Assembly: GCA_018240405.1 (NCBI GenBank)
Contig: JAFEFW010000637.1
Location: forward strand, 1-64,000
DNA length: 64,000 bases
Direction: 5' to 3'
Source of the DNA: Pseudomonadota bacterium
GTDB lineage: Bacteria > Pseudomonadota > Alphaproteobacteria > Acetobacterales > Acetobacteraceae
Shown: positions 2 through 12,372 of the stretch, piece after piece
Numbering within the stretch: the first letter of the stretch is position 1
Layout: the number at the start of each line of letters is the position of its first letter
Made by a program: the position numbers and the translations under genes
The notes under the pieces: model-generated
The model's input: the letters and a program-made list of their open reading frames with translations, nothing else
Databases searched by the model: none
What the model was told of the DNA's origin: nothing

Positions 2-577
2 TATCTGCTGGCGGTGAAAGCCAACCAGCCGACGCTGCAGGCGGAGATTGAGGGCTGCTTTGCGGTCGCTGAGCCTGGCAGCCTCGACATCCATGTCGAT
101 CACAATAAGGGTCACGGCCGGATCGAACAGCGCAGCGTCCGTGTTGTTCGCGAGGTGGACTGGCTCAACGGTGAGCGCCGCTTCCCCGGTGAGCTGCGTC
201 TGCCGGACGCTGCCAGCAGCGTGCGCGTGAAGGCTTGTATTCAGCGTGGTGAGAAGCGGCACGAAGAGACCCGCTGCTACATCTCGTCCGCCATTTTGAC
301 CGCTGAGTAGGCCGGCTCGGCCGTGCGGGGACATTGGGCGATCGAGAACAGCCTGCACTGGGTTCTCGATGTCGCCTTTAGCGAGGACCAGTCGCGCCTG
401 CGCAAAGGCTTTGGCGCGCAATATGGCGGTCGTTCGGCACTTTGCGCTGAACCTCGTGCGGACGGCGAAGGACAAGCGCTCGATCAAGCCGCGCCGCAAA
501 CTGGTAGCCTGGACGCCCAATTATCTCGATCAATTGCTGCAGGAACAGGTCAAGCGAAACTTGGATTCGAGGCCCTG
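2..577 (+). pseudogene. ISAs1-family transposase, 3' remnant (copy 1)
   Basis: Conceptual translation from base 2 matches the C-terminal half of ISAs1/H-repeat DDE transposases. It shows the YLLAVKANQPTL opening, the GHGRIEQRS stretch, [16 protein letters not shown] with its conserved glutamate, and the RTAKDKR tail. The reading frame is broken twice. An in-frame TAG lies at 308-310, just before the AGSAVRGHW motif. A single missing base near 418-421 shifts the tail ([14 protein letters not shown]) into another frame. The 5' part lies outside the window. No terminal inverted repeat was recognised. It is a dead fragment; the family is clear from the motifs, the exact element is not. Confidence 0.8.
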
Positions 578-895
578 ACGAAGAGACCCGTTGCTACATC
601 TCGTTAACTATCCTGATCGCTGATAAAGCTGGCTCAGCCGTGCGTGGGCGCTGGGCAAACGAGAACAGCCTGAAGTGGGTTCTCAACGTCACCTTCAACG
701 AGGACCAGTCACGGCTGCTCAAAGGCTCCGGTGCACGTAACATGGCCGTCGTCCGCCACTTCGCGCTCAACCTCGTGCGGACAGCAAAGGACAAGCGCCT
801 GATCAAGCTGCGCCGCAAGCTGCAGCCTGGATGCCTGACTGTCCCGGTCGACTGCTTCAGGAACAGGTCAAGTGAAATTTGGGTTCAAGGCCCTG
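261..895 (+). repeat. Tandem direct repeat, about 317 bp unit, within transposase remnants
   Basis: Units 261-577 and 578-895 abut exactly, with matching left and right borders and obvious but imperfect identity throughout. The two units carry different disabling changes: a stop plus a deletion in the first, a different frameshift in the second. Confidence 0.7.
578..895 (+). pseudogene. ISAs1-family transposase, 3' remnant (copy 2)
   Basis: A second, diverged copy of the same transposase tail follows copy 1 directly. Both copies begin with ACGAAGAGACCCG (261 and 578) and end with GGCCCTG (577 and 895), so the unit is about 317 bp in tandem. Copy 2 keeps ETRCYIS, AGSAVRGRW, DQSRLL and [14 protein letters not shown] in one frame. 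It then loses register after RRKL near 820, where a base is missing relative to copy 1. No start codon or N-terminal domain exists. It is either a decayed second insertion or a tandem duplication of the first remnant. Confidence 0.75.
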
Positions 896-981
896 CGTCA
901 ATCGACCCGTCAATCGACAGAGGCATTGCCTGAAAAGCCGCTCCGTCGGATGCTGGCGGCGACCAGCCGAGGGGCCGCCGG

Positions 982-3455: not shown

Positions 3456-4850
3456 CTACCCTCTGGCGGTGGTGTATAGTGCGGCTGGCGGATTGGCGGC
3501 GACGCGTTTGTGTTGGTTGAACGTGCCTGCGCGCAGGGCCCGCCAAAGCATTCTGAACCAGGCCAGCAGGAGCCTGAAGTTATATCCGGCGGCGGCCAGC
3601 ACCGCGTTGGCCGCATCGCCAGCCCGTCCGGCCAGGAAGTTGCGGTCCATGCGGTGCCCGTCCTTCATATGGCCGATGACCGGCTCGACGGCTGATCGGC
3701 GGCGGAGCTCCCGGCGGATCTGACCGGTCACACCGCGCTTCTGCCCGGTGGTGAAGACCTGCATGCCCTTCACTGGCGGGGCGTTGTGGCCGCGGTAGCC
3801 GGCATCGGCAATGACCCGGCGCAGCGAGACGCCGATCTGCTCGGTGATGGCGGGGATGACCGTCTTCAGGGTGTGACCGTCATACGGATTGCCCGGCAGA
3901 GCCGCGACATGGGCGACGAACTGCCCGCCGGCGCAGCGGTGCAGCGGCGTCGCCACCGAGACCTTGACGCCGAACTCGTAGGGCTTGTGCGGCTTGCCCT
4001 TGCCGATGCACTCCACCTCCGGCGCATGCAGGCTGTAGACCTTGGGACCACGCTGGCCACGACGTTGATGGCGCACCCGGATGGCCTGCGACAGCAGCGG
4101 GGCAAATGCCTCCTTTGCGGCGGGATCGTCGGCGATCTTGCGGCCAATGTCGCGGATCACCCGGCCGAGATAAGTGCGCTGCTTCTTGAGGGCGCGGTTG
4201 GCACGCTTGAACTGTTTGGCATGGGCGTAGCGCTGATGGGCGATCAATGCCGCCTTGCCGACACGCACATAGCTCTGGCGCAGCGACACGCCGAGCGTCT
4301 TCGCCATCCCCACCAGCTTCTCACGTGCGCGGTGGACCAGCTTGGCATCAGTGGGGAAGGTGATGGCTTTCGGCTGCACCGTGGTGTCGACGATCATTTT
4401 GGTGAAGTCGGCTGGCTTGGCAGCACCGCTGCGGGTCGCCAGGTGCAGGCTCTCCTGCACCAGCGCCAGCAGCTTCTCTTCGCCCATGCGCTGGCGCCAG
4501 CGCGTCAGCGAGGATCGGTCGAACGGCGCCTCGTGGCGGAAGAACTCTTCGCCGCAGAACAGCTGGTAATAGGGGTTCTCCAACCAACGCGCGCACAAGG
4601 TTTCGTCCGACAGGTTCTCCATGTGCTTGAGAATGGTGAGGCCGGCCATCAGCAGGGTGGGCAGCGGCGGCCGGCCCGGCTTGTCGCTGTAGGCTGCGCC
4701 GAGCCGGCTTTCGAGAAAGCCCCAGTCGATGGCCCGAGCGAGCTTCACCAGCGGATGCTTGAGGCTGACAATCTCATCAAGGCGCGATCGCAGCAGGTCC
4801 CGCTGGCGCGTCTCGGTTGACTTCGGCGGTCGCATCGGCAGTGCCTCCAC
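3456..4850 (-). mobile_element. IS5-family insertion sequence transposase, intact
   Basis: A 464-residue transposase with an N-terminal DUF772-type region (GRPPLPTLLMAGLTILKHM, residues 59-77) and a complete RNase H-like DDE core. Catalytic candidates are D155 (KMIVDTTVQP), D349 (VIADAGYRGHNA) and E389 (RRSAVEPVIGHMKDGHRM). There is no internal stop or frameshift, so the element may still be active. The likely start is 4850, or the in-frame ATG at 4835. I could not identify terminal inverted repeats or a target duplication by eye, so the coordinates cover only the coding region. It lies between the MFS gene and a small orphan ORF. Confidence 0.9.
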
Positions 4851-6353: not shown

Positions 6354-6370
6354 CTGACAAAACCCTGACA
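6354..6370 (+). promoter_or_regulatory. Direct repeat CTGACA-N5-CTGACA, candidate response-regulator site
   Basis: Two identical CTGACA hexamers (6354-6359 and 6365-6370) with an 11-bp period lie about 90 bp upstream of the PepSY/cytochrome b operon. The same arrangement recurs at 9715-9731 in front of the two-component operon. Tandem repeats with 11-bp spacing are the usual target form for OmpR/PhoB-family regulators. The link to the regulator at 8685-9347 is inference. Confidence 0.6.
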
Positions 6371-6461
6371 CCTCCCATCAGCACGGCGACAGCACGACCC
6401 TGCCAATCTCCGCCTCGTTCGAACGGCATCCCGCCGCTCGACCCGAAACGGAGACACCACA

Positions 6462-6749
6462 ATGCGCACCGTCACTCGCCTCGCCGCCACCGCCGCCGCC
6501 ATCACCATCGTTGCGCTCGGCGCCGCCGGCGCCCATGCCAGCAGTCTCGGCCGGCCCTGTACAGCCTCGCCGGAAAGCCAGTACCTCAGCGCCGCCGACC
6601 TGCAGGCAAAGGCCGAGGCACAAGGCTACACCGTCAGTCGCGTAAAAATCGCCAAAGCCTGCGGTGAGATCTACGCCCGCGACAAGGCTGGCGCCCGTGT
6701 CGAACTCTTCGTCGATCCGACCAACGGCACCATCGTCGCGACCAACTAA
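6462..6749 (+). CDS. PepSY-domain periplasmic protein
   Basis: A 95-residue exported protein. It has a Sec-type signal peptide (hydrophobic run after MRTVTRLAATAAA, cleavage likely after AHA near residue 26), then a single PepSY-like domain. The domain contains LSAADLQAKAEAQGYTVSRVKI, ending in the typical ARVELFVDPTNGTIV strand. PepSY domains are small periplasmic modules often found with membrane cytochromes and two-component systems. It lies 11 bases upstream of a cytochrome b gene and behind a CTGACA direct repeat. It pairs functionally with the second PepSY protein at 9344-9691. Confidence 0.85.
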   Translation: MRTVTRLAATAAAITIVALGAAGAHASSLGRPCTASPESQYLSAADLQAKAEAQGYTVSRVKIAKACGEIYARDKAGARVELFVDPTNGTIVATN

Positions 6750-6760
6750 GCGAGGCCGTC

Positions 6761-7336
6761 ATGTCCTTCGCATCGCATGCGGCACAACCCGGCAGCACCT
6801 CGCTGCCGGCGTCCGCGCCGCAGACGGTCCGGGTCTGGGACCCGGTCGTCCGCATCTTCCACTGGGGCGTCGCCATCGCCTTCCTGATCGCCTGCCTCAC
6901 CGCCGAGGAACTCGATGGTATCCACCGGGCCACGGGCTATCTGATCGCCGCACTGCTGGCCGTCCGAGTCGTCTGGGGGTTGATTGGCACGAAATACGCC
7001 CGCTTCATCGACTTCGTCCGCTCGCCCCGCACCGCGCTGGAGTACCTGCGCCAATCGCGCGACGGCACCGCCCCGCGCTATCTCGGCCACAACCCGGCCG
7101 GGGGCCTGATGGCTATTGCCCTGATGGGGCTGCTGGGCGGCATCTGCTACACCGGCTATTTGATGACGACGCCGCAATGGTGGGGCTCTGAACTCATGGA
7201 GGGTCTGCACGAAACGCTGGTGAACGGAACGATCGGGCTGATCGTGCTGCACATCCTGGGCAATGTCTTCAGCAGCATCGTCCACCGTGAGAACCTGACG
7301 CTGTCGATGATCACTGGCCGGAAGCGGGTTCAGTGA
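6761..7336 (+). CDS. Cytochrome b/b6-domain membrane protein
   Basis: A 191-residue membrane protein of the hydrogenase-type cytochrome b (cytochrome b561-like) family with four predicted transmembrane helices. Candidate heme-b ligands are H34 (RIFHW), H55 (IHRATGY), H150 (GLHETLV) and H164 (VLHILGN). The RVVWGLIGTKYARF motif after TM2 is typical. It would move electrons between quinol and periplasmic c-type cytochromes. It follows the PepSY gene at 11 bp and ends overlapping the convergent histidine kinase gene by 7 bp. It resembles the N-terminal half of the fusion protein at 10325-11455, consistent with a duplicated module. Confidence 0.9.
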   Translation: MSFASHAAQPGSTSLPASAPQTVRVWDPVVRIFHWGVAIAFLIACLTAEELDGIHRATGYLIAALLAVRVVWGLIGTKYARFIDFVRSPRTALEYLRQSRDGTAPRYLGHNPAGGLMAIALMGLLGGICYTGYLMTTPQWWGSELMEGLHETLVNGTIGLIVLHILGNVFSSIVHRENLTLSMITGRKRVQ

Positions 7337-8688
7337 CGCAATGGAAGGCGGATCGCGGCATGCAGTCCGCCCAGCCCCGACCGGCCAAGCGCCAGGGCGC
7401 CGCCATAGGCTTCCACCAGATCGGTGACGATCGCGAGTCCCAGGCCGGTACCAGGTCGGGACTCGTCAAGCCGTCCGCCCCGAGCGAGCGCCACCGGCAT
7501 ATCGTCTTCGGCGATGCCAGGCCCGTCGTCTTCCACCGCGACCACGCAGCCATCCGGGGCCGCAACGGCCGTGACCGTTACCTGGGTCTGCGCCCATTTC
7601 ACGGCGTTCTCCGCGAGGTTTCCCAGCATCTCGGCCATGTCCTGCGGATCGACCGCGGCGGCGACGCTGGCGGGGGCGTCCACCGCCCAATCCAGTTCCT
7701 GACCACGTGGCGTGCGGCGCAGCACGCCGACTACCTGCCCGATCACCGGCGCCACAGGTTGCAGCACGGCACTGCGGGTGGCGTGACTGACACGGGCACG
7801 CGCCAGCTCGCGCTCCACGTGGCGCCGCATGCCGTCCGCCACGCCGTTGATTTCATCGGCAATCGCTGCATCGCCACGGGCGCGCAAATCCTCCGCTGTC
7901 GTGGCCAGCACCGTCAGCGGGGTCTTCAGCCCATGGGCCAGATCCGCCGCGCGCGCGCGGGCGCGCATCATCGCGGCCTCCTGCGCATCCAGCAGCGTGT
8001 CCACCTCCAGGGCCAGCGGCCGCACCTCATCAGGAAAGTCGTTGCCCAGGCGCGGCATCCGGCCCTCGCGCACCGCGGCCAGGCGGCGGCGCACCGCATC
8101 GAGCGGACGCAGCCCGACGGTCACCTGCACCCAGGCCGCAGCGGCCAATATCAGAGCGAGCAGGCCGAGGGCCGGCAGCAGGTCGGTGGCGAAGGCACGG
8201 GCGGCGGTCGTAACAACGCTTCGGTCCACCGCTACAACCGCTCGGATTTGCACACCGCCCAGGCTGGCGGGCAATCGTACGGACCGCTCCGCCGCCAGCA
8301 ACATTGCGCCGCCGGGGCCGAGCAGGTCGTGCAGGTGCTCTTGGCCGGGCGTAAGGTCGTCCTGCGGCAGGGCCAGCACCGTGTCCCAGAGCGAGCGCGA
8401 GCGAAGCAGCGGCCCGCCACCCAAAGGGGTGATCTGCCAGTAGGAGCCGCTGAGCGGCGTGTCGAATAACGGCTCTGCCGGCGGCCGGGCCACCTCGAGG
8501 GCACCGTTCGCCCCCAGCGCCAGACCGCCGATCAGTTGGCGCAGGTCGGTTTCCAGCTCCGCAACGACGCGCCGCTCGACATGCCGCTCGAACAGCAGCA
8601 GCAATCCACCCCCGGCGACCGTCAGCGCCACCACAATGGATGCCGCCCCGGCCGCGAAAAGGCGAAGCCGGAGCGAGCCCTTCTTCAC
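7330..8688 (-). CDS. Sensor histidine kinase of the cytochrome/PepSY cluster
   Basis: A 452-residue inner-membrane sensor kinase. TM1 lies near residues 11-32, a periplasmic sensor region of about 135 residues follows, and TM2 is near 167-188. Next come a linker and the dimerisation domain with phospho-acceptor H252 (DLAHGLKTPLTVL). The ATPase domain has the N-box (GNLAENAVKWA), DDGPGIAEDD and GTGLGLAI. The HGLKTPL spelling resembles PhoQ-like kinases. The start overlaps the stop of the response-regulator gene by 4 bp, so the pair is translationally coupled. The signal is unknown; context suggests redox or heme state, or a periplasmic ligand handled with PepSY proteins. Confidence 0.92.
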   Translation of the reverse strand: MKKGSLRLRLFAAGAASIVVALTVAGGGLLLLFERHVERRVVAELETDLRQLIGGLALGANGALEVARPPAEPLFDTPLSGSYWQITPLGGGPLLRSRSLWDTVLALPQDDLTPGQEHLHDLLGPGGAMLLAAERSVRLPASLGGVQIRAVVAVDRSVVTTAARAFATDLLPALGLLALILAAAAWVQVTVGLRPLDAVRRRLAAVREGRMPRLGNDFPDEVRPLALEVDTLLDAQEAAMMRARARAADLAHGLKTPLTVLATTAEDLRARGDAAIADEINGVADGMRRHVERELARARVSHATRSAVLQPVAPVIGQVVGVLRRTPRGQELDWAVDAPASVAAAVDPQDMAEMLGNLAENAVKWAQTQVTVTAVAAPDGCVVAVEDDGPGIAEDDMPVALARGGRLDESRPGTGLGLAIVTDLVEAYGGALALGRSGLGGLHAAIRLPLRH

Positions 8689-9347
8689 GCCTTGGCCACC
8701 AGGTAGCCGAAGCCACGCCGCGTTTCGATCAGGTCCACGCCCAGCTTCCGACGCAGGCGGCCGATCAGCACTTCGACTGCGTTCAGGTCGCGGTCATGGT
8801 CGTGGGCGTAGAGGTGATCCATCAATTCCGTCGGCGGCACGACACGGCCAGCATGGTGCATCAGGTAGCTCAGCGCGCGGTACTCCAGCGGCGATAATGT
8901 GACCTGCGCCTCGTCCACGAGCACCCGCATTTGCCGCGTGTCCAGCGTGACAGCCCCGATCTGCAGCACGGCGGAGGCCTTGCCGGCGGACCGGCGCAGC
9001 AAGGCCCGTACACGAGCGAGCAACTCCTCCATGGCGAAGGGCTTCGGCAGGTAATCATCGGCGCCGGCATCGATCCCCTCGACACGCTCTGCCCAGGCGC
9101 CGCGTGCGGTCAGCACAAGCACGGGGAAGTCGCGGCCGGCGGCGCGCCATTTCTTCAGCACCGACAGTCCGTCGAGTTTGGGCAGACCCAGGTCGAGCAC
9201 GGCCAGGTCGTAGTCCTCGGTGTCGCCCTGGAACCAGGCATCCTCGCCATTGTCCGCAGAATCGATGGCGTAACCGGCAGCTTCCAGCGCCGCCTGCACG
9301 CGTCCCAGGATCCGCGGATCGTCCTCGACGACAAGGATTCGCATCAA
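8685..9347 (-). CDS. OmpR/PhoP-family response regulator
   Basis: A 220-residue DNA-binding response regulator. The receiver domain (1-120) has the acidic pocket E8/D9/D10, phospho-acceptor D52 (LAVLDLGLP), T80 and K102 (YLPKPF). The C-terminal winged helix (about 125-218) includes LSPLEYRALSYLMHHAGRVV and VEVLIGRLRRKLG. It overlaps the kinase gene downstream and the PepSY gene upstream by 4 bp each. Candidate binding sites are the CTGACA-N5-CTGACA repeats at 6354-6370 and 9715-9731. This would make the system autoregulated and put the first cytochrome operon under its control. Confidence 0.93.
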   Translation of the reverse strand: MMRILVVEDDPRILGRVQAALEAAGYAIDSADNGEDAWFQGDTEDYDLAVLDLGLPKLDGLSVLKKWRAAGRDFPVLVLTARGAWAERVEGIDAGADDYLPKPFAMEELLARVRALLRRSAGKASAVLQIGAVTLDTRQMRVLVDEAQVTLSPLEYRALSYLMHHAGRVVPPTELMDHLYAHDHDRDLNAVEVLIGRLRRKLGVDLIETRRGFGYLVAKA

Positions 9348-9691
9348 TGCGCCTCCCGCTTCACGATCTCCGCCGTGGCGGCATCGACATAGACCTCCGT
9401 CATCTGGCCGCCGGCACCGATGACTCGGAACTCATAAAGCCACTTGCCAGCCTTGCGGCGGAATTCGACGCCCGTGACTTCGCCGCCAAGTTCCGGACGA
9501 ACCTGGGCGAGAATTTCCGATAGCGGGCGGGCCTCGCCACGTTCGACGGCAAGCCGGGCGCGGTCATGATCGTGGCGGTGGCGGTAGACACCCTCATCGT
9601 CGTCCGGGTCGGCTCGGCCGGGGGCGGAGGAAAGCGCAAGGGCCGCGATCACGCCAGCGGCGATGAAGGCCCGTCGGGAAAGAGCGCACAT
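9344..9691 (-). CDS. PepSY-domain exported protein, first gene of the two-component operon
   Basis: A 115-residue protein starting at the ATG at 9691. It has a twin-arginine-like signal (RRAFIAAGVIAALALSSAPGRA). A His/Asp-rich linker follows (GVYRHRHDHDRAR), which could bind metal. The PepSY domain holds RPLSEILAQVRPELGGEVTGVEF, GKWLYEFRVI, and ends TEVYVDAATAEIV. The open frame runs upstream to 9976, but that extension is antisense to another gene and lacks family similarity. The stop overlaps the response-regulator start by 4 bp. A periplasmic PepSY protein co-transcribed with a kinase suggests a sensor accessory or modulator; this is inference. Confidence 0.85.
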   Translation of the reverse strand: MCALSRRAFIAAGVIAALALSSAPGRADPDDDEGVYRHRHDHDRARLAVERGEARPLSEILAQVRPELGGEVTGVEFRRKAGKWLYEFRVIGAGGQMTEVYVDAATAEIVKREAH

Positions 9692-9714
9692 GCGCGCAGC
9701 ATAGGCGCGGTTCC

Positions 9715-9731
9715 CTGACAATTCGCTGACA
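9715..9731 (-). promoter_or_regulatory. Direct repeat CTGACA-N5-CTGACA in the divergent promoter
   Basis: On the plus strand CTGACA occurs at 9715-9720 and 9726-9731, an 11-bp period identical to the repeat at 6354-6370. It lies 24 bp upstream of the PepSY/regulator/kinase operon start at 9691 and about 100 bp upstream of the divergent PsiE-like gene, so it could control either or both. Confidence 0.6.
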
Positions 9732-9828
9732 TGGCTCAACAGCCGCATGACAGCAATGACGCGGCACAAGAGGCGATGAACCAGGGATGGAGTCCCGTCA
9801 TGCCACGCCTGTCGAGGAGTGCCGCGCC

Positions 9829-10317
9829 ATGGACAAGTTGATGCATCGTGCCACCACGAATGCCTTTCTGTACGTCGAGAACACCGTCTATGGCGCCCTC
9901 GGCGCACTGCTCGCCACTGCCGCTCTGCTCGCCCTTGGTGCCGCCGGCCGCCACCTGTGGGACGCTGTCGCGGCATGGAACACCGGCTCCGCCGTGTTCT
10001 CGGTGATCGAGCGCCTGCTGCTGGTCTTCATGCTGGTCGAGATCCTGCACACGATCCGCGCCTCGATGCAGTCGCACACACTGACCTGCGAGCCGTTCCT
10101 GATCGTTGCGCTCATCGCCTCGGTGCGACGGATGCTGGTGATCACACTGGAATCGAGCGAGGCGTCGCGCGAAACCACCTGGACAGCGCAGACCGAAATG
10201 ATCTTCCGCTCTACCATGCTGGAACTTGGCGTGCTGGGCACGCTGAGCTTGATCATGGTGGTGGCTATCTACATGCTGCGCCGCAGCCGCCGGTACGCCG
10301 GCGACGTCGCAGTGTGA
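9829..10317 (+). CDS. PsiE-like membrane protein
   Basis: A 162-residue membrane protein with four hydrophobic segments, matching the phosphate-starvation-inducible PsiE family fold. Features are an acidic NTVYGALGALLATAALLAL first helix, VFSVIERLLLVFMLVEILHTI, ACTVAL-like EPFLIVALIASVRRMLVIT, and a final helix ending in RRSRR. The chosen ATG (9829) has GAGGAG about 10 bases upstream; a GTG/ATG further up would add 14 residues with no support. PsiE function is not known. It lies 7 bp upstream of the cytochrome b/diheme fusion gene, so it is the first gene of the SHP operon, an uncommon partner. Confidence 0.8.
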   Translation: MDKLMHRATTNAFLYVENTVYGALGALLATAALLALGAAGRHLWDAVAAWNTGSAVFSVIERLLLVFMLVEILHTIRASMQSHTLTCEPFLIVALIASVRRMLVITLESSEASRETTWTAQTEMIFRSTMLELGVLGTLSLIMVVAIYMLRRSRRYAGDVAV

Positions 10318-10324
10318 TGCACCC

Positions 10325-11455
10325 ATGAGCGAGGTGCTGACTCGTGCCGACTGCAGCACGATCCTGGTCTGGGATCGTGGCGTTCGGATCTTCCACTGGG
10401 GCCTGGTTGCCGGCATCGTGGTCTGCGGCTGGACGGGGTTCATTGCGCCGAGGAACTGGCTGAACCTGCACCTCGCTGCGGGCGCGGCCGTCACAGCGCT
10501 GGTGTGCTTCCGGCTGATCTGGGGCAGCACCGGCTCTACCTACGCGCGCTTCCGCAGCTTTTCTCCATCCCTGGCGGCGGTGCGTGCACACCTGGCAGCG
10601 ATCGCGGCCGGACGGCCGCAGCACCATATCGGCCACAATCCGGCCGGCGCGCTGATGATCTATGGGCTGCTGGGCCTTCTTGTGCTGCTGATCCTGACCG
10701 GGGTCATTGCGCTGGGTGGCGCCCTGAAGCAGGGACCGCTGGCCTTCGCAGTGCCGTTTGCGGTCGGCTGGCCGGCGCGAGAGGTCCACGAATGGCTGGC
10801 CTGGGGGCTGCTGCTCCTGATCGCCGGGCATCTCTGCGGCGTGGTGCTTGAGACACTGGTAACGCGCGAAAACATCGTCCGCGCCATGCTGACCGGTCGC
10901 AAGCGGGCGTCCCCCGCAGCGTGTGGCAACCCCGCCAAGGCACATCCCGTCCTGGCCGCGACCGCATTCGTCGCGGGGGCGGCCGGCATTGCCGCCGGGA
11001 CGATCTGGCTGTCCGACAGGCCGGCCGCCGGTGTGCCAGGCGAGAAACTGGACGCAGCCTATGCGCGCGAGTGCGGCGCCTGCCACTTCGCCTTTCCGCC
11101 CAGCCTGGCGAGCGCCCAGACCTGGGCAGCGGTGATGGCCAGCCTCGACAATCATTTCGGTGAGAATGCCAACCTCGATCCCACCCAGATGGCACGGATG
11201 CTGGCCTGGCTCACTGCCAATTCGGCAGAACGCTTTGATACGCTGCCGGCCAATCTGTTCCGTCAGGCGGATCCAGCCGAACCTCGGCGCATCACCGCAA
11301 CGCCTGCCTGGCAGCGCATCCACCGCGCCATTCCTGACAGTGTGTTCGGCTCCAAGCAGGTGGGCGCCAGAGGCGCCTGTGAGGCCTGCCACCGCGACGC
11401 GGCGTCAGGCCGTTTCGATCCCCAATCCATCTCCCTGCCAAAGGAACTCCGCTGA
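10325..11455 (+). CDS. Cytochrome b - diheme cytochrome c fusion protein
   Basis: A 376-residue fusion. Residues 1-190 form a four-helix cytochrome b domain with candidate heme-b ligands H24 (RIFHWG), H49 (NLHLA), H155 (VHEWL) and H169 (AGHLCG). A fifth helix near 206-228 anchors a periplasmic domain holding two heme-c motifs, CGACH at 250-254 and CEACH at 352-356. The c-domain is clearly related to the separate diheme cytochrome at 11881-12372 (shared ECG-CH, NHFGENA and ITATP/ITETP stretches). It should carry electrons from quinol to SHP. The stop overlaps the SHP gene start by 4 bp (ATGA). Confidence 0.9.
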   Translation: MSEVLTRADCSTILVWDRGVRIFHWGLVAGIVVCGWTGFIAPRNWLNLHLAAGAAVTALVCFRLIWGSTGSTYARFRSFSPSLAAVRAHLAAIAAGRPQHHIGHNPAGALMIYGLLGLLVLLILTGVIALGGALKQGPLAFAVPFAVGWPAREVHEWLAWGLLLLIAGHLCGVVLETLVTRENIVRAMLTGRKRASPAACGNPAKAHPVLAATAFVAGAAGIAAGTIWLSDRPAAGVPGEKLDAAYARECGACHFAFPPSLASAQTWAAVMASLDNHFGENANLDPTQMARMLAWLTANSAERFDTLPANLFRQADPAEPRRITATPAWQRIHRAIPDSVFGSKQVGARGACEACHRDAASGRFDPQSISLPKELR

Positions 11456-11868
11456 TGACCATTCGTACTCTGCTCGCCGTCTCGGCCTTTCTGGCCGCGA
11501 CACCGGCGCTAGCCGGTTCGGCGCAGCATGCCGTGCTGGCCCGTTACGCGGCCGAGGCCAAGACGGCCGACCCGGGCTTCACCGGCTTCTCGGCGGAACG
11601 CGGCAAGGCGTTGTTCCACGCGAAGTTCGCCACCGGCAAGCCGGATACACCGTCCTGCACCACGTGCCACACCGAAAACCCGAAGCAGGAAGGTCGGACG
11701 CGCGCCGGCAAAATCGTTCCGCCGCTGGCACTGTCGGTCAAGGCTGATCGCTACAGCGACTTTGCGGAAACCGAGAAATGGTTCGGCCGCAACTGCGACA
11801 GCGTCATCGGCCGCACCTGCACACCGGTCGAGAAGGGCGACTTCATCAGCTACATGATCACGCAGTAG
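11455..11868 (+). CDS. shp: SHP-type class I cytochrome c (DUF1924)
   Basis: A 137-residue exported cytochrome with a signal peptide cleaved near ALA-G (residue 20) and one heme-c site, CTTCH at 68-72. The overall sequence matches DUF1924/SHP proteins: GFSAERGKALFHAKFATGK, ARAGKIVPPLALS-like GKIVPPLA, and the tail FGRNCDSVIGRTCTPVEKGDFISYM. SHP from Rhodobacter sphaeroides binds oxygen and NO at a heme with an asparagine sixth ligand; N113 in GRNCDS is the candidate here (inference). In other bacteria shp is linked to a diheme cytochrome c and a cytochrome b, exactly as seen here. C114 and C122 could form a disulfide. Confidence 0.9.
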   Translation: MTIRTLLAVSAFLAATPALAGSAQHAVLARYAAEAKTADPGFTGFSAERGKALFHAKFATGKPDTPSCTTCHTENPKQEGRTRAGKIVPPLALSVKADRYSDFAETEKWFGRNCDSVIGRTCTPVEKGDFISYMITQ

Positions 11869-11880
11869 GAGCCGTTTCCG

Positions 11881-12372
11881 ATGAGACGAATCAGCATTGC
11901 CGCCGCGGCCGCTGCCGTGTTGCTTGCGACCGGGGGCCTGGCCTGGGCTGACCGGCATCATCAGCGCGGTGCAGCGTCATCTGCCAGCGTCGATCCGATC
12001 TATCTGAAGGAGTGCGGGTCATGCCACATGGCATTCCAGCCGCAGTTCCTGCCGGTGCGCTCCTGGCAGGCTGTGATGAATGACCTCGCCGATCATTTTG
12101 GGGAGAACGCGAGCCTGGGCGAGACCACACGGCAGGCAATCCTGACCTACCTGCAGGCCAACGCCGGCGATGCCCCGGGCAGTAACACGCGGTTACTGCG
12201 TGGCCTGGCCAGCAGCAAGACGCCACTACGCATCACGGAGACGCCGTACTGGGTGCGGGAACACCAGAAGGAGGTGCGGCCGTCCGCGTTCCTGGATCCG
12301 AAGGTGAAGAGCAAGGCCAACTGTATTGCCTGCCATGTAAATGCACAGCAGGGGATCTATGAGGGCGATTGA
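11881..12372 (+). CDS. Diheme cytochrome c (DHC)
   Basis: A 163-residue periplasmic cytochrome with signal peptide (AVLLATGGLAWA, cleavage near residue 23) and two heme-c motifs: CGSCH about residue 42 and CIACH near 151. The length and spacing match the DHC family, the known electron donor of SHP. It is 12 bp downstream of shp with the SD-like AGGAG in between. It repeats the domain already fused to the cytochrome b two genes upstream, so the operon encodes two DHC modules, one tethered and one soluble. Confidence 0.9.
   Translation: MRRISIAAAAAAVLLATGGLAWADRHHQRGAASSASVDPIYLKECGSCHMAFQPQFLPVRSWQAVMNDLADHFGENASLGETTRQAILTYLQANAGDAPGSNTRLLRGLASSKTPLRITETPYWVREHQKEVRPSAFLDPKVKSKANCIACHVNAQQGIYEGD

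Follow-up and report, generated by a model that had tools for sequence, protein, structure and literature searches.

Genes at the locus and the CTGACA repeat

We analysed a stretch of 64,000 nucleotides from an Acetobacteraceae genome (contig JAFEFW010000637.1 of assembly GCA_018240405.1), hereafter the window, focusing on a direct repeat that stands beside a two-component system and two sets of cytochrome genes. An earlier reading of the window, made from its letters alone (the sequence-only reading), had reported identical CTGACA-N5-CTGACA repeats at 6354-6370 and 9715-9731 and had predicted from them an OmpR-type system that regulates itself as well as the two cytochrome operons. The coordinates are exact, and both copies lie on the + strand (CTGACAaaaccCTGACA at 6354-6370 and CTGACAattcgCTGACA at 9715-9731).

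Following the first copy, on the + strand, are genes for a PepSY_2 domain protein (6462-6749; Pfam PF13670, E = 3.1e-21) and a cytochrome b561-type membrane protein (6761-7336; PF01292, E = 7.6e-28). Next come three adjacent genes on the - strand, spanning 9691-7330 and assigned with Pfam, whose order recurs in many relatives. The first encodes a PepSY protein similar to DbfQ and Orf1 (9344-9691; PF03413, E = 3.3e-6 on a longer, mechanically called open reading frame (ORF)), the second an OmpR/PhoB-type response regulator resembling PmrA, BasR and QseB (8685-9347), with Arg210 and Ala190 in its DNA-binding domain, and the third a sensor histidine kinase (7330-8688; Pfam HATPase_c) carrying SGSYWQ at residue 80 and RSRSLWD at residue 96, in its N-terminal (periplasmic) part. 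Judging by the conserved spacing described below, the likeliest start of the PepSY gene is the ATG at 9691 and not position 9976, where the mechanical ORF begins. The second repeat is therefore 23 bp upstream of the two-component operon, besides being upstream of PsiE. The gene layout given by the sequence-only reading is as described apart from this start, whose correction sets the 9715 site against the 5′ end of the two-component operon.

Beyond the second copy, again on the + strand, are genes for a PsiE family membrane protein (9829-10317, with a provisional start codon; PF06146, E = 1.6e-12 on the ORF from 9787), a cytochrome b561 fused to a diheme cytochrome c (DHC; 10325-11455; PF01292 and PF09626), a DUF1924 cytochrome (11455-11868; PF09086, E = 1.6e-33) and a further DHC (11881-12372; PF09626, E = 2.1e-39). 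We take the DUF1924 (PF09086) cytochrome to be an SHP. The two PepSY proteins of the window were considered as recent paralogs, and this was rejected as no BLASTP alignment was obtained between them. Elsewhere in the window, ORFs at 3456-4850 (-) and 14-933 (+) resemble transposases or their remnants by eye.

Architecture of the element in relatives

Related loci were collected by searching for homologues of the regulator. These were present in 56 of 249 genomes of the family and 96 of 387 of the class (both E <= 1e-55), and in every one of the 34 genus genomes (E <= 0.001), where most were weaker paralogs; the window's own genome is included in each count. All family matches except rows G045, G056 and G087, 70 of 103 class rows and eleven genus rows were taken, giving 143 oriented loci with 135 distinct regulators, window included. 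A simple pattern divided the 135 loci into 27 with a CTGACA tandem (type A), 69 with (C/A/G)TGAA(C/T) tandems (type B) and 39 with no recognised site. The tandem precedes the PepSY gene or, at loci without an identified PepSY gene, the regulator gene, and its orientation is mostly that seen in the window.

When 24 A and 53 B loci were aligned by this left tandem, a conserved right half emerged. The CTGACA tandem is the left half of a 39-bp element made of four half-sites in 11-bp steps, with orientation + + - -. The consensus is CTGACA-N5-CTGACA-N5-CntCAG-N5-nGtcag for type A and CTGAAC-N5-CTGAAC-N5-GyTCAG-N5-GTTCAG for type B, so that the half-sites read TGTCAG (A) or GTTCAG (B) outwards. Two direct half-sites with an 11-bp period, a feature of OmpR/PmrA-type tandem operators, are thus present as the sequence-only reading had held, and its tandem is only one arm of a mirror-symmetric array. 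Anchoring on the left tandem builds in the left arm, and symmetry was therefore also scored without naming any motif. Taking the best position within the 700 bp upstream, a score of 18 or more was reached by 53 of the 135 distinct loci, by none of 135 dinucleotide shuffles and by 8 of 323 control windows of the same loci, which may themselves hold second operators. The window's own score is 18.

Both window arrays match the four-block pattern with 0 mismatches on the + strand. Candidate operator 1 (6354-6392), upstream of the PepSY_2/cytochrome b561 operon, reads CTGACA-aaacc-CTGACA-cctcc-CATCAG-cacgg-CGACAG. Candidate operator 2 (9715-9753), between the two-component and PsiE/cytochrome operons, reads CTGACA-attcg-CTGACA-tggct-CAACAG-ccgca-TGACAG.

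Many relatives, spread across Alphaproteobacteria, have the array in front of their PepSY-regulator-kinase operon. In Rhodopila globiformis DSM 161, whose regulator is 87% identical to that of the window, it has the two-component operon on one side and cytochrome b and DHC-like genes on the other. Among the first 21 listed relatives (L262-L282), 12 have CTGAC, CTGTC or ATGAC arrays, including a Thiohalocapsa metagenome-assembled genome and Arenimonas composti. TGAATG tandems are seen instead in L278 and L279, and Vibrio hepatarius and Thaumasiovibrio (L280, L281) have CTTACC-N5-CTTACC tandems 5′ of the regulator and of the small ORF preceding it; CTTACC is possibly the half-site of a Vibrio branch. 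Four of these 21 (L267, L270, L273 and L275) have no recognised site, and L266 is cut short.

Predicted mirrored -10 elements and a predicted leaderless start

The 77 anchored arrays share bases outside their arms. An A occupies the 13th base outside the arm (A13) in 90% of loci on the left and 74% on the right, against means of 15% and 17% elsewhere. It is combined with a T at base 17 (T17) in 39 of 77 loci on the left and 45 of 77 on the right, against at most 5 at three shifted control positions. These look like A-11 and T-7 of mirrored -10 elements. The array with a -10-like element directly 5′ of the two-component operon is conserved. In 58 of the 77 loci the leftward operon has its start codon 23-26 bases outside the array. 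A transcript starting 6-8 bases past the -10 element would begin at or beside the ATG, and the PepSY mRNA is therefore predicted to be leaderless.

Fourteen further sites were inspected one by one for the flanking A13 and T17. Eight of them, candidate operator 1 included, have PepSY-cytochrome or SHP genes on the right, and in these A13 is present on the right in 8/8 and T17 in 7/8. We read these eight arrays as one-sided, the left-hand genes having been checked for some only. L230 has A13 on the right side only, and L239 and L244 have neither base.

In the window, the predicted -10 of candidate operator 1 is CAATCT (6404-6409, +), 11 bp beyond the right arm and at the consensus position; no counterpart was found on its left side. 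On the left of candidate operator 2, also 11 bp beyond the arm, TATGCT (9698-9703, -) is the predicted -10 of the PepSY-regulator-kinase operon, and transcription is predicted to start at or beside the ATG at 9691. On its right, CACAAG (9765-9770, +) is a weak predicted -10 for the PsiE/cytochrome operon, with A13 present and T17 absent.

These positions bear on whether a bound regulator would activate. Four contiguous sites between divergent promoters could silence both as well, and a regulator that represses, or that loops or blocks the divergent promoters, would make equal use of a genuine array. Between the end of each arm and its -10-like element there are 11 bp, and a -35 at the usual spacing would therefore fall inside the array. 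This placement matches the PmrA/PhoB activation model in the part of PMC4660055 available, and a reporter in V. cholerae suggests positive autoregulation of dbfQRS (PMC12714742, available portion). We consequently regard repression or blocking as unlikely, though it is the rival to which we give most weight.

Occurrence of the array and its putative targets

At up to 2 mismatches the CTGACA tandem has 9 matches in the window against 3.85 expected by shuffling, and 2 of 100 shuffles reach 9; such loose matches therefore carry little weight and it is the two exact copies that are notable. The whole assembly (7.37 Mb, 681 contigs) holds 4 exact copies, against 0 for the reversed control, the other two being within a reading frame on contig C300 and on contig C681. 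Across the 34 genus genomes there are 14 exact copies, 4 of which come from the window's own genome, while the reversed control gives 3. The exact tandem by itself was thus rejected as too loose a definition of the site, and the four-block form was used instead. In the window's own genome this array occurs, at up to 2 mismatches, in 2 places only (reversed control 0). In the same genome, a single-box pattern combined with a -10 element found the two-component promoter, the C681 place and a weaker place on C195 (control 1).

The C681 copy (C681:10126-10142; L004 and L343, genome G000) is intergenic; the ATG of a BchI-like magnesium chelatase gene follows it at a distance of 81 bp. The right arm is missing from this copy, whose -10-like hexamer faces away from bchI, to the 3′ end of another reading frame and not to a gene start. 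It was rejected as a third target on these grounds and is probably a chance match. Separately, three genomes of the genus carry the same 17-mer, CTGACACATCGCTGACA (G208:C209:1867, G214:C167:3457 and G216:C33:13958), possibly another conserved site or part of a shared gene.

The commonness of loose matches and the isolated exact tandems, such as that within the C300 reading frame, are what would speak for the repeat being an accident of chance or low complexity that plays no part in regulation. Conservation at one promoter across many genera, the four-block symmetry and the mirrored -10 positions leave this explanation with a negligible probability.

The four-block pattern for type A (<=2 mismatches) was then applied to 12 genomes selected for close regulators. 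It matched 22 places (26 rows, with 4 places on both strands) in 10 of the 12, and the reversed control matched none. Nine of the 22 arrays precede the two-component operon. Another nine precede cytochrome b561 or SHP genes, namely six PepSY_2-cytochrome b561 pairs, two SHP genes (in G143 and G076, the latter with an intervening cytochrome b561-like gene below the Pfam cut-off) and one lone cytochrome b561 gene, whose array (L230) overlaps the end of the kinase reading frame. The remaining four comprise one on an efflux-gene side in G088, one at G201:14088 and two in G277 that resemble chance. The G088 array (L225:1501-1539, Siccirubricoccus) is flanked by a small ORF and a gene for an outer-membrane efflux protein, has A13 and T17 on both sides, and suggests an efflux target in that genus.

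The type B pattern matched 17 places in 15 genomes (control 0), of which 14 are the two-component promoter itself. The other three are all in G143 or G120, and one of them, in G143 (L256:1501-1539), lies upstream of a cytochrome b561 gene, from which B systems may also have cytochrome targets. At this stringency, given 14 of 17 places against nine plus nine of 22, B systems appear to be mainly self-regulating and A systems to have cytochrome targets too.

Two circumstances that the sequence-only reading had named as fatal to it do not apply: the array is not frequent at random positions, occurring twice in 7.37 Mb, and it is not lacking from orthologous promoters. The scan of related genomes that it had proposed likewise places the array before PepSY/cytochrome b561 and SHP genes elsewhere.

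Half-site type and regulator clade

The half-site varies among relatives. Where the regulator is at least 61.5% identical to that of the window (26 distinct loci) there are 20 A, 3 B (L165, L167 and L179) and 3 with no site; at 53.5-61.5% (91 loci) there are 7 A, 64 B and 20 with none; and below 53.5% (18 loci) there are 2 B and 16 with none. In the first family set, 13 of 14 loci in the top band are A (with up to 2 changed bases, e.g. L049), L089 being the exception; the 36 loci of the middle band hold 25 exact CTGAAC tandems, 2 other B, 5 A and 4 with none; and 0 of 4 in the lowest band have a site. Percent identity was rejected as the divide between A and B, since the classes are mixed on both sides of 61.5%.

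The clade is the dividing line. A single clade of 30 (support 1.0) takes in all 25 A regulators that are at least 200 residues long; its other 5 members lack a class. Comparing these 25 with 68 B regulators of the same minimum length, position 210 is Arg in 25/25 A and 0/68 B, and position 190 is Ala in 24/25 A and Thr in 62/68 B. The closest solved structures to the window's regulator are BasR (8jo2 and 4s04), and its best NCBIfam model is PmrA, below that model's cut-off. Window residues N189 and R211 align with PmrA N188 and R210; PmrA N196 corresponds to R197 in the window, a difference. According to the accessible part of PMC4660055, position 210 adjoins the Arg that PmrA inserts into the minor groove, and the base-contacting Asn adjoins position 190. 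The half-site switch is one step on the tree, and the correlation between residues and half-site is therefore a single event and not repeated evidence. The identical half-sites that the sequence-only reading pointed out in the window give way to clade-dependent half-sites among relatives, which it had missed.

The two regulator types occur together in four genomes (G088, G143, G152 and G277), where each operon is preceded by the half-site that goes with its regulator. This observation also bears on the identity of the regulator. Pho boxes, bound by PhoB, have the form CTGTCAT-N4-CTGTCAT and stand before phosphate-regulated genes, and PsiE is named after phosphate starvation. The arrays share with them the TGTCA core (read outwards) and the 11-bp period, and a PsiE domain gene lies beside candidate operator 2. 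However, what follows 18 of the 22 A arrays is this two-component operon, a cytochrome b561 gene or an SHP gene, none of the identified array neighbours is a phosphate gene, and the half-site at the same place changes with the clade of the local regulator, even between two operons of one genome. Since the half-sites (TGTCAG/GTTCAG) track the local regulator, we rejected Pho boxes as an explanation and consider them very unlikely.

A model of regulation

It is highly probable, in our judgement, that the CTGACA arrays are operators of the neighbouring regulator, within an activation and autoregulation model as follows. The sequences at 6354-6392 and 9715-9753 would be operators of the OmpR/PmrA-type regulator encoded at 8685-9347. 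With half-sites in the order + + - - at an 11-bp helix step, each arm would form a PmrA/BqsR-like box facing outwards. The kinase would phosphorylate the regulator, one dimer would bind per arm, and an arm-bound dimer would recruit RNA polymerase to the -10 element 11 bp outside that arm. The array at 9715-9753 would then drive the PepSY-regulator-kinase operon leftwards, giving positive autoregulation, and the PsiE/cytochrome b-DHC/SHP/DHC operon rightwards. That at 6354-6392, with a right-side -10 only, would drive PepSY_2-cytochrome b561. The PepSY products may bind the sensor domain of the kinase, as DbfQ does in V. cholerae, and so provide feedback. Comparison shows the arrays, where they are placed, their symmetry, the positions of the -10-like elements and the pairing of half-site with regulator clade. 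We infer binding, its dependence on phosphorylation, activation rather than repression, the PepSY feedback and the signal; the autoregulated control of both cytochrome operons put forward by the sequence-only reading gains support from the comparative placement of the arrays.

Several observations weigh against this model. Recognised sites are absent from 39 of 135 loci (3/26, 20/91 and 16/18 with decreasing regulator identity), five of these loci being within the A clade (L089, L091, L157, L161 and L221), and Lichenifustis L267 and L270 have no site though their regulators are 72-74% identical to that of the window. In the window, the right arms of both arrays are imperfect and the PsiE-side -10 has no T at base 17. 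Left-side A13 also occurs in 2 of the 8 arrays interpreted as one-sided, and A13 is on both sides of L235, without T17, and of the presumed-chance C681 tandem (L004). The residue correlation, coming from one change on the tree, counts once. Finally, a strict regular expression for the kinase signature (both motifs) matches 46 of 131 relatives; the motifs were therefore not used as a family criterion, and the signature was rejected as a marker of the whole family.

A wider reading joins these elements. A bidirectional, mirror-symmetric activation module of four half-sites would stand before DbfQRS-like operons across Alphaproteobacteria, with equidistant -10 elements and a leaderless first gene; a one-time xTGAAC/CTGACA switch, with the Arg210 and Ala190 changes, would insulate paralogs; and the CTGACA branch would have gained cytochrome b561/SHP targets. 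Taken as a whole, we favour this reading only slightly.

If correct, it would give a widespread family of PepSY protein, regulator and kinase sensors a concrete, searchable DNA address, and the regulon of the family could therefore be read from sequence in many bacteria. Cytochrome b561/SHP genes would also be tied to this family. Paralogs that differ in half-site within one genome would offer a natural experiment on changes in response-regulator DNA specificity, and the mirrored promoter, with its conserved distance to the start codon, makes a clear architectural prediction that can be tested.

Comparison with known systems

The papers compared below were available in part, and statements on their content refer to those parts. 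One likeness in gene order is to DbfQRS of V. cholerae, in which a gene for a small secreted PepSY protein is followed by response regulator and kinase genes (PMC12714742). There, the PepSY protein DbfQ binds the sensor domain of the kinase DbfS and favours phosphatase activity. The V. cholerae system controls biofilm and metabolism, whereas the predicted targets in the window are cytochrome b561, SHP and DHC genes. No DNA operator is described in the portion of PMC12714742 covered, where the term 'binding site' has 0 occurrences. Our comparison with Vibrionaceae is with V. hepatarius and Thaumasiovibrio, whose regulators are 53-54% identical to that of the window and accompanied by CTTACC tandems.

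A second likeness is to the SK1/response regulator/Orf1 module that Meyer et al. (2010) found beside SHP operons and for which they proposed SHP regulation (PMC2909971). Shared features are kinase motifs of the SGVYWQ/RSRSLWD type, an accessory periplasmic protein, a divergent promoter, and SHP and DHC genes alongside. The covered text of PMC2909971 describes no operator: 'direct repeat', 'box' and 'palindrom' are absent, and 'promoter' occurs twice, both times for the divergent promoter. We infer that Orf1 is a PepSY protein, a word absent from that text.

UzcR of Caulobacter is likewise an alphaproteobacterial two-component regulator and activates mostly genes for envelope or secreted proteins (PMC8963506). 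Its half-sites are partially palindromic, CATTAC-N6-TTAA, and as this motif differs a UzcR-type site was rejected.

The proposed operator itself can be compared with those of PmrA/BasR and BqsR (PMC4660055, PMC4682146). PmrA/BasR binds tandem half-sites as a head-to-tail dimer, at a site at or overlapping the -35. The BqsR box is TTAAG-N6-TTAAG, with an 11-bp period, and a BqsR promoter with four pentamers has been described. Read outwards, the arms reported here are TTCAG-N6-TTCAG (B) and GTCAG-N6-GTCAG (A), and so resemble the TTAAG-N6-TTAAG of BqsR. A search of the literature, as far as the texts were available, found no description of this operator, of a mirrored double box or of the outward series TTAAG/TTCAG/GTCAG. 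Compared with the PmrA and BqsR sites as these texts describe them, the half-site sequence here is different, and a single mirror-symmetric array of 39 bp joins two boxes that face away from each other, each with a -10-like element beyond it.

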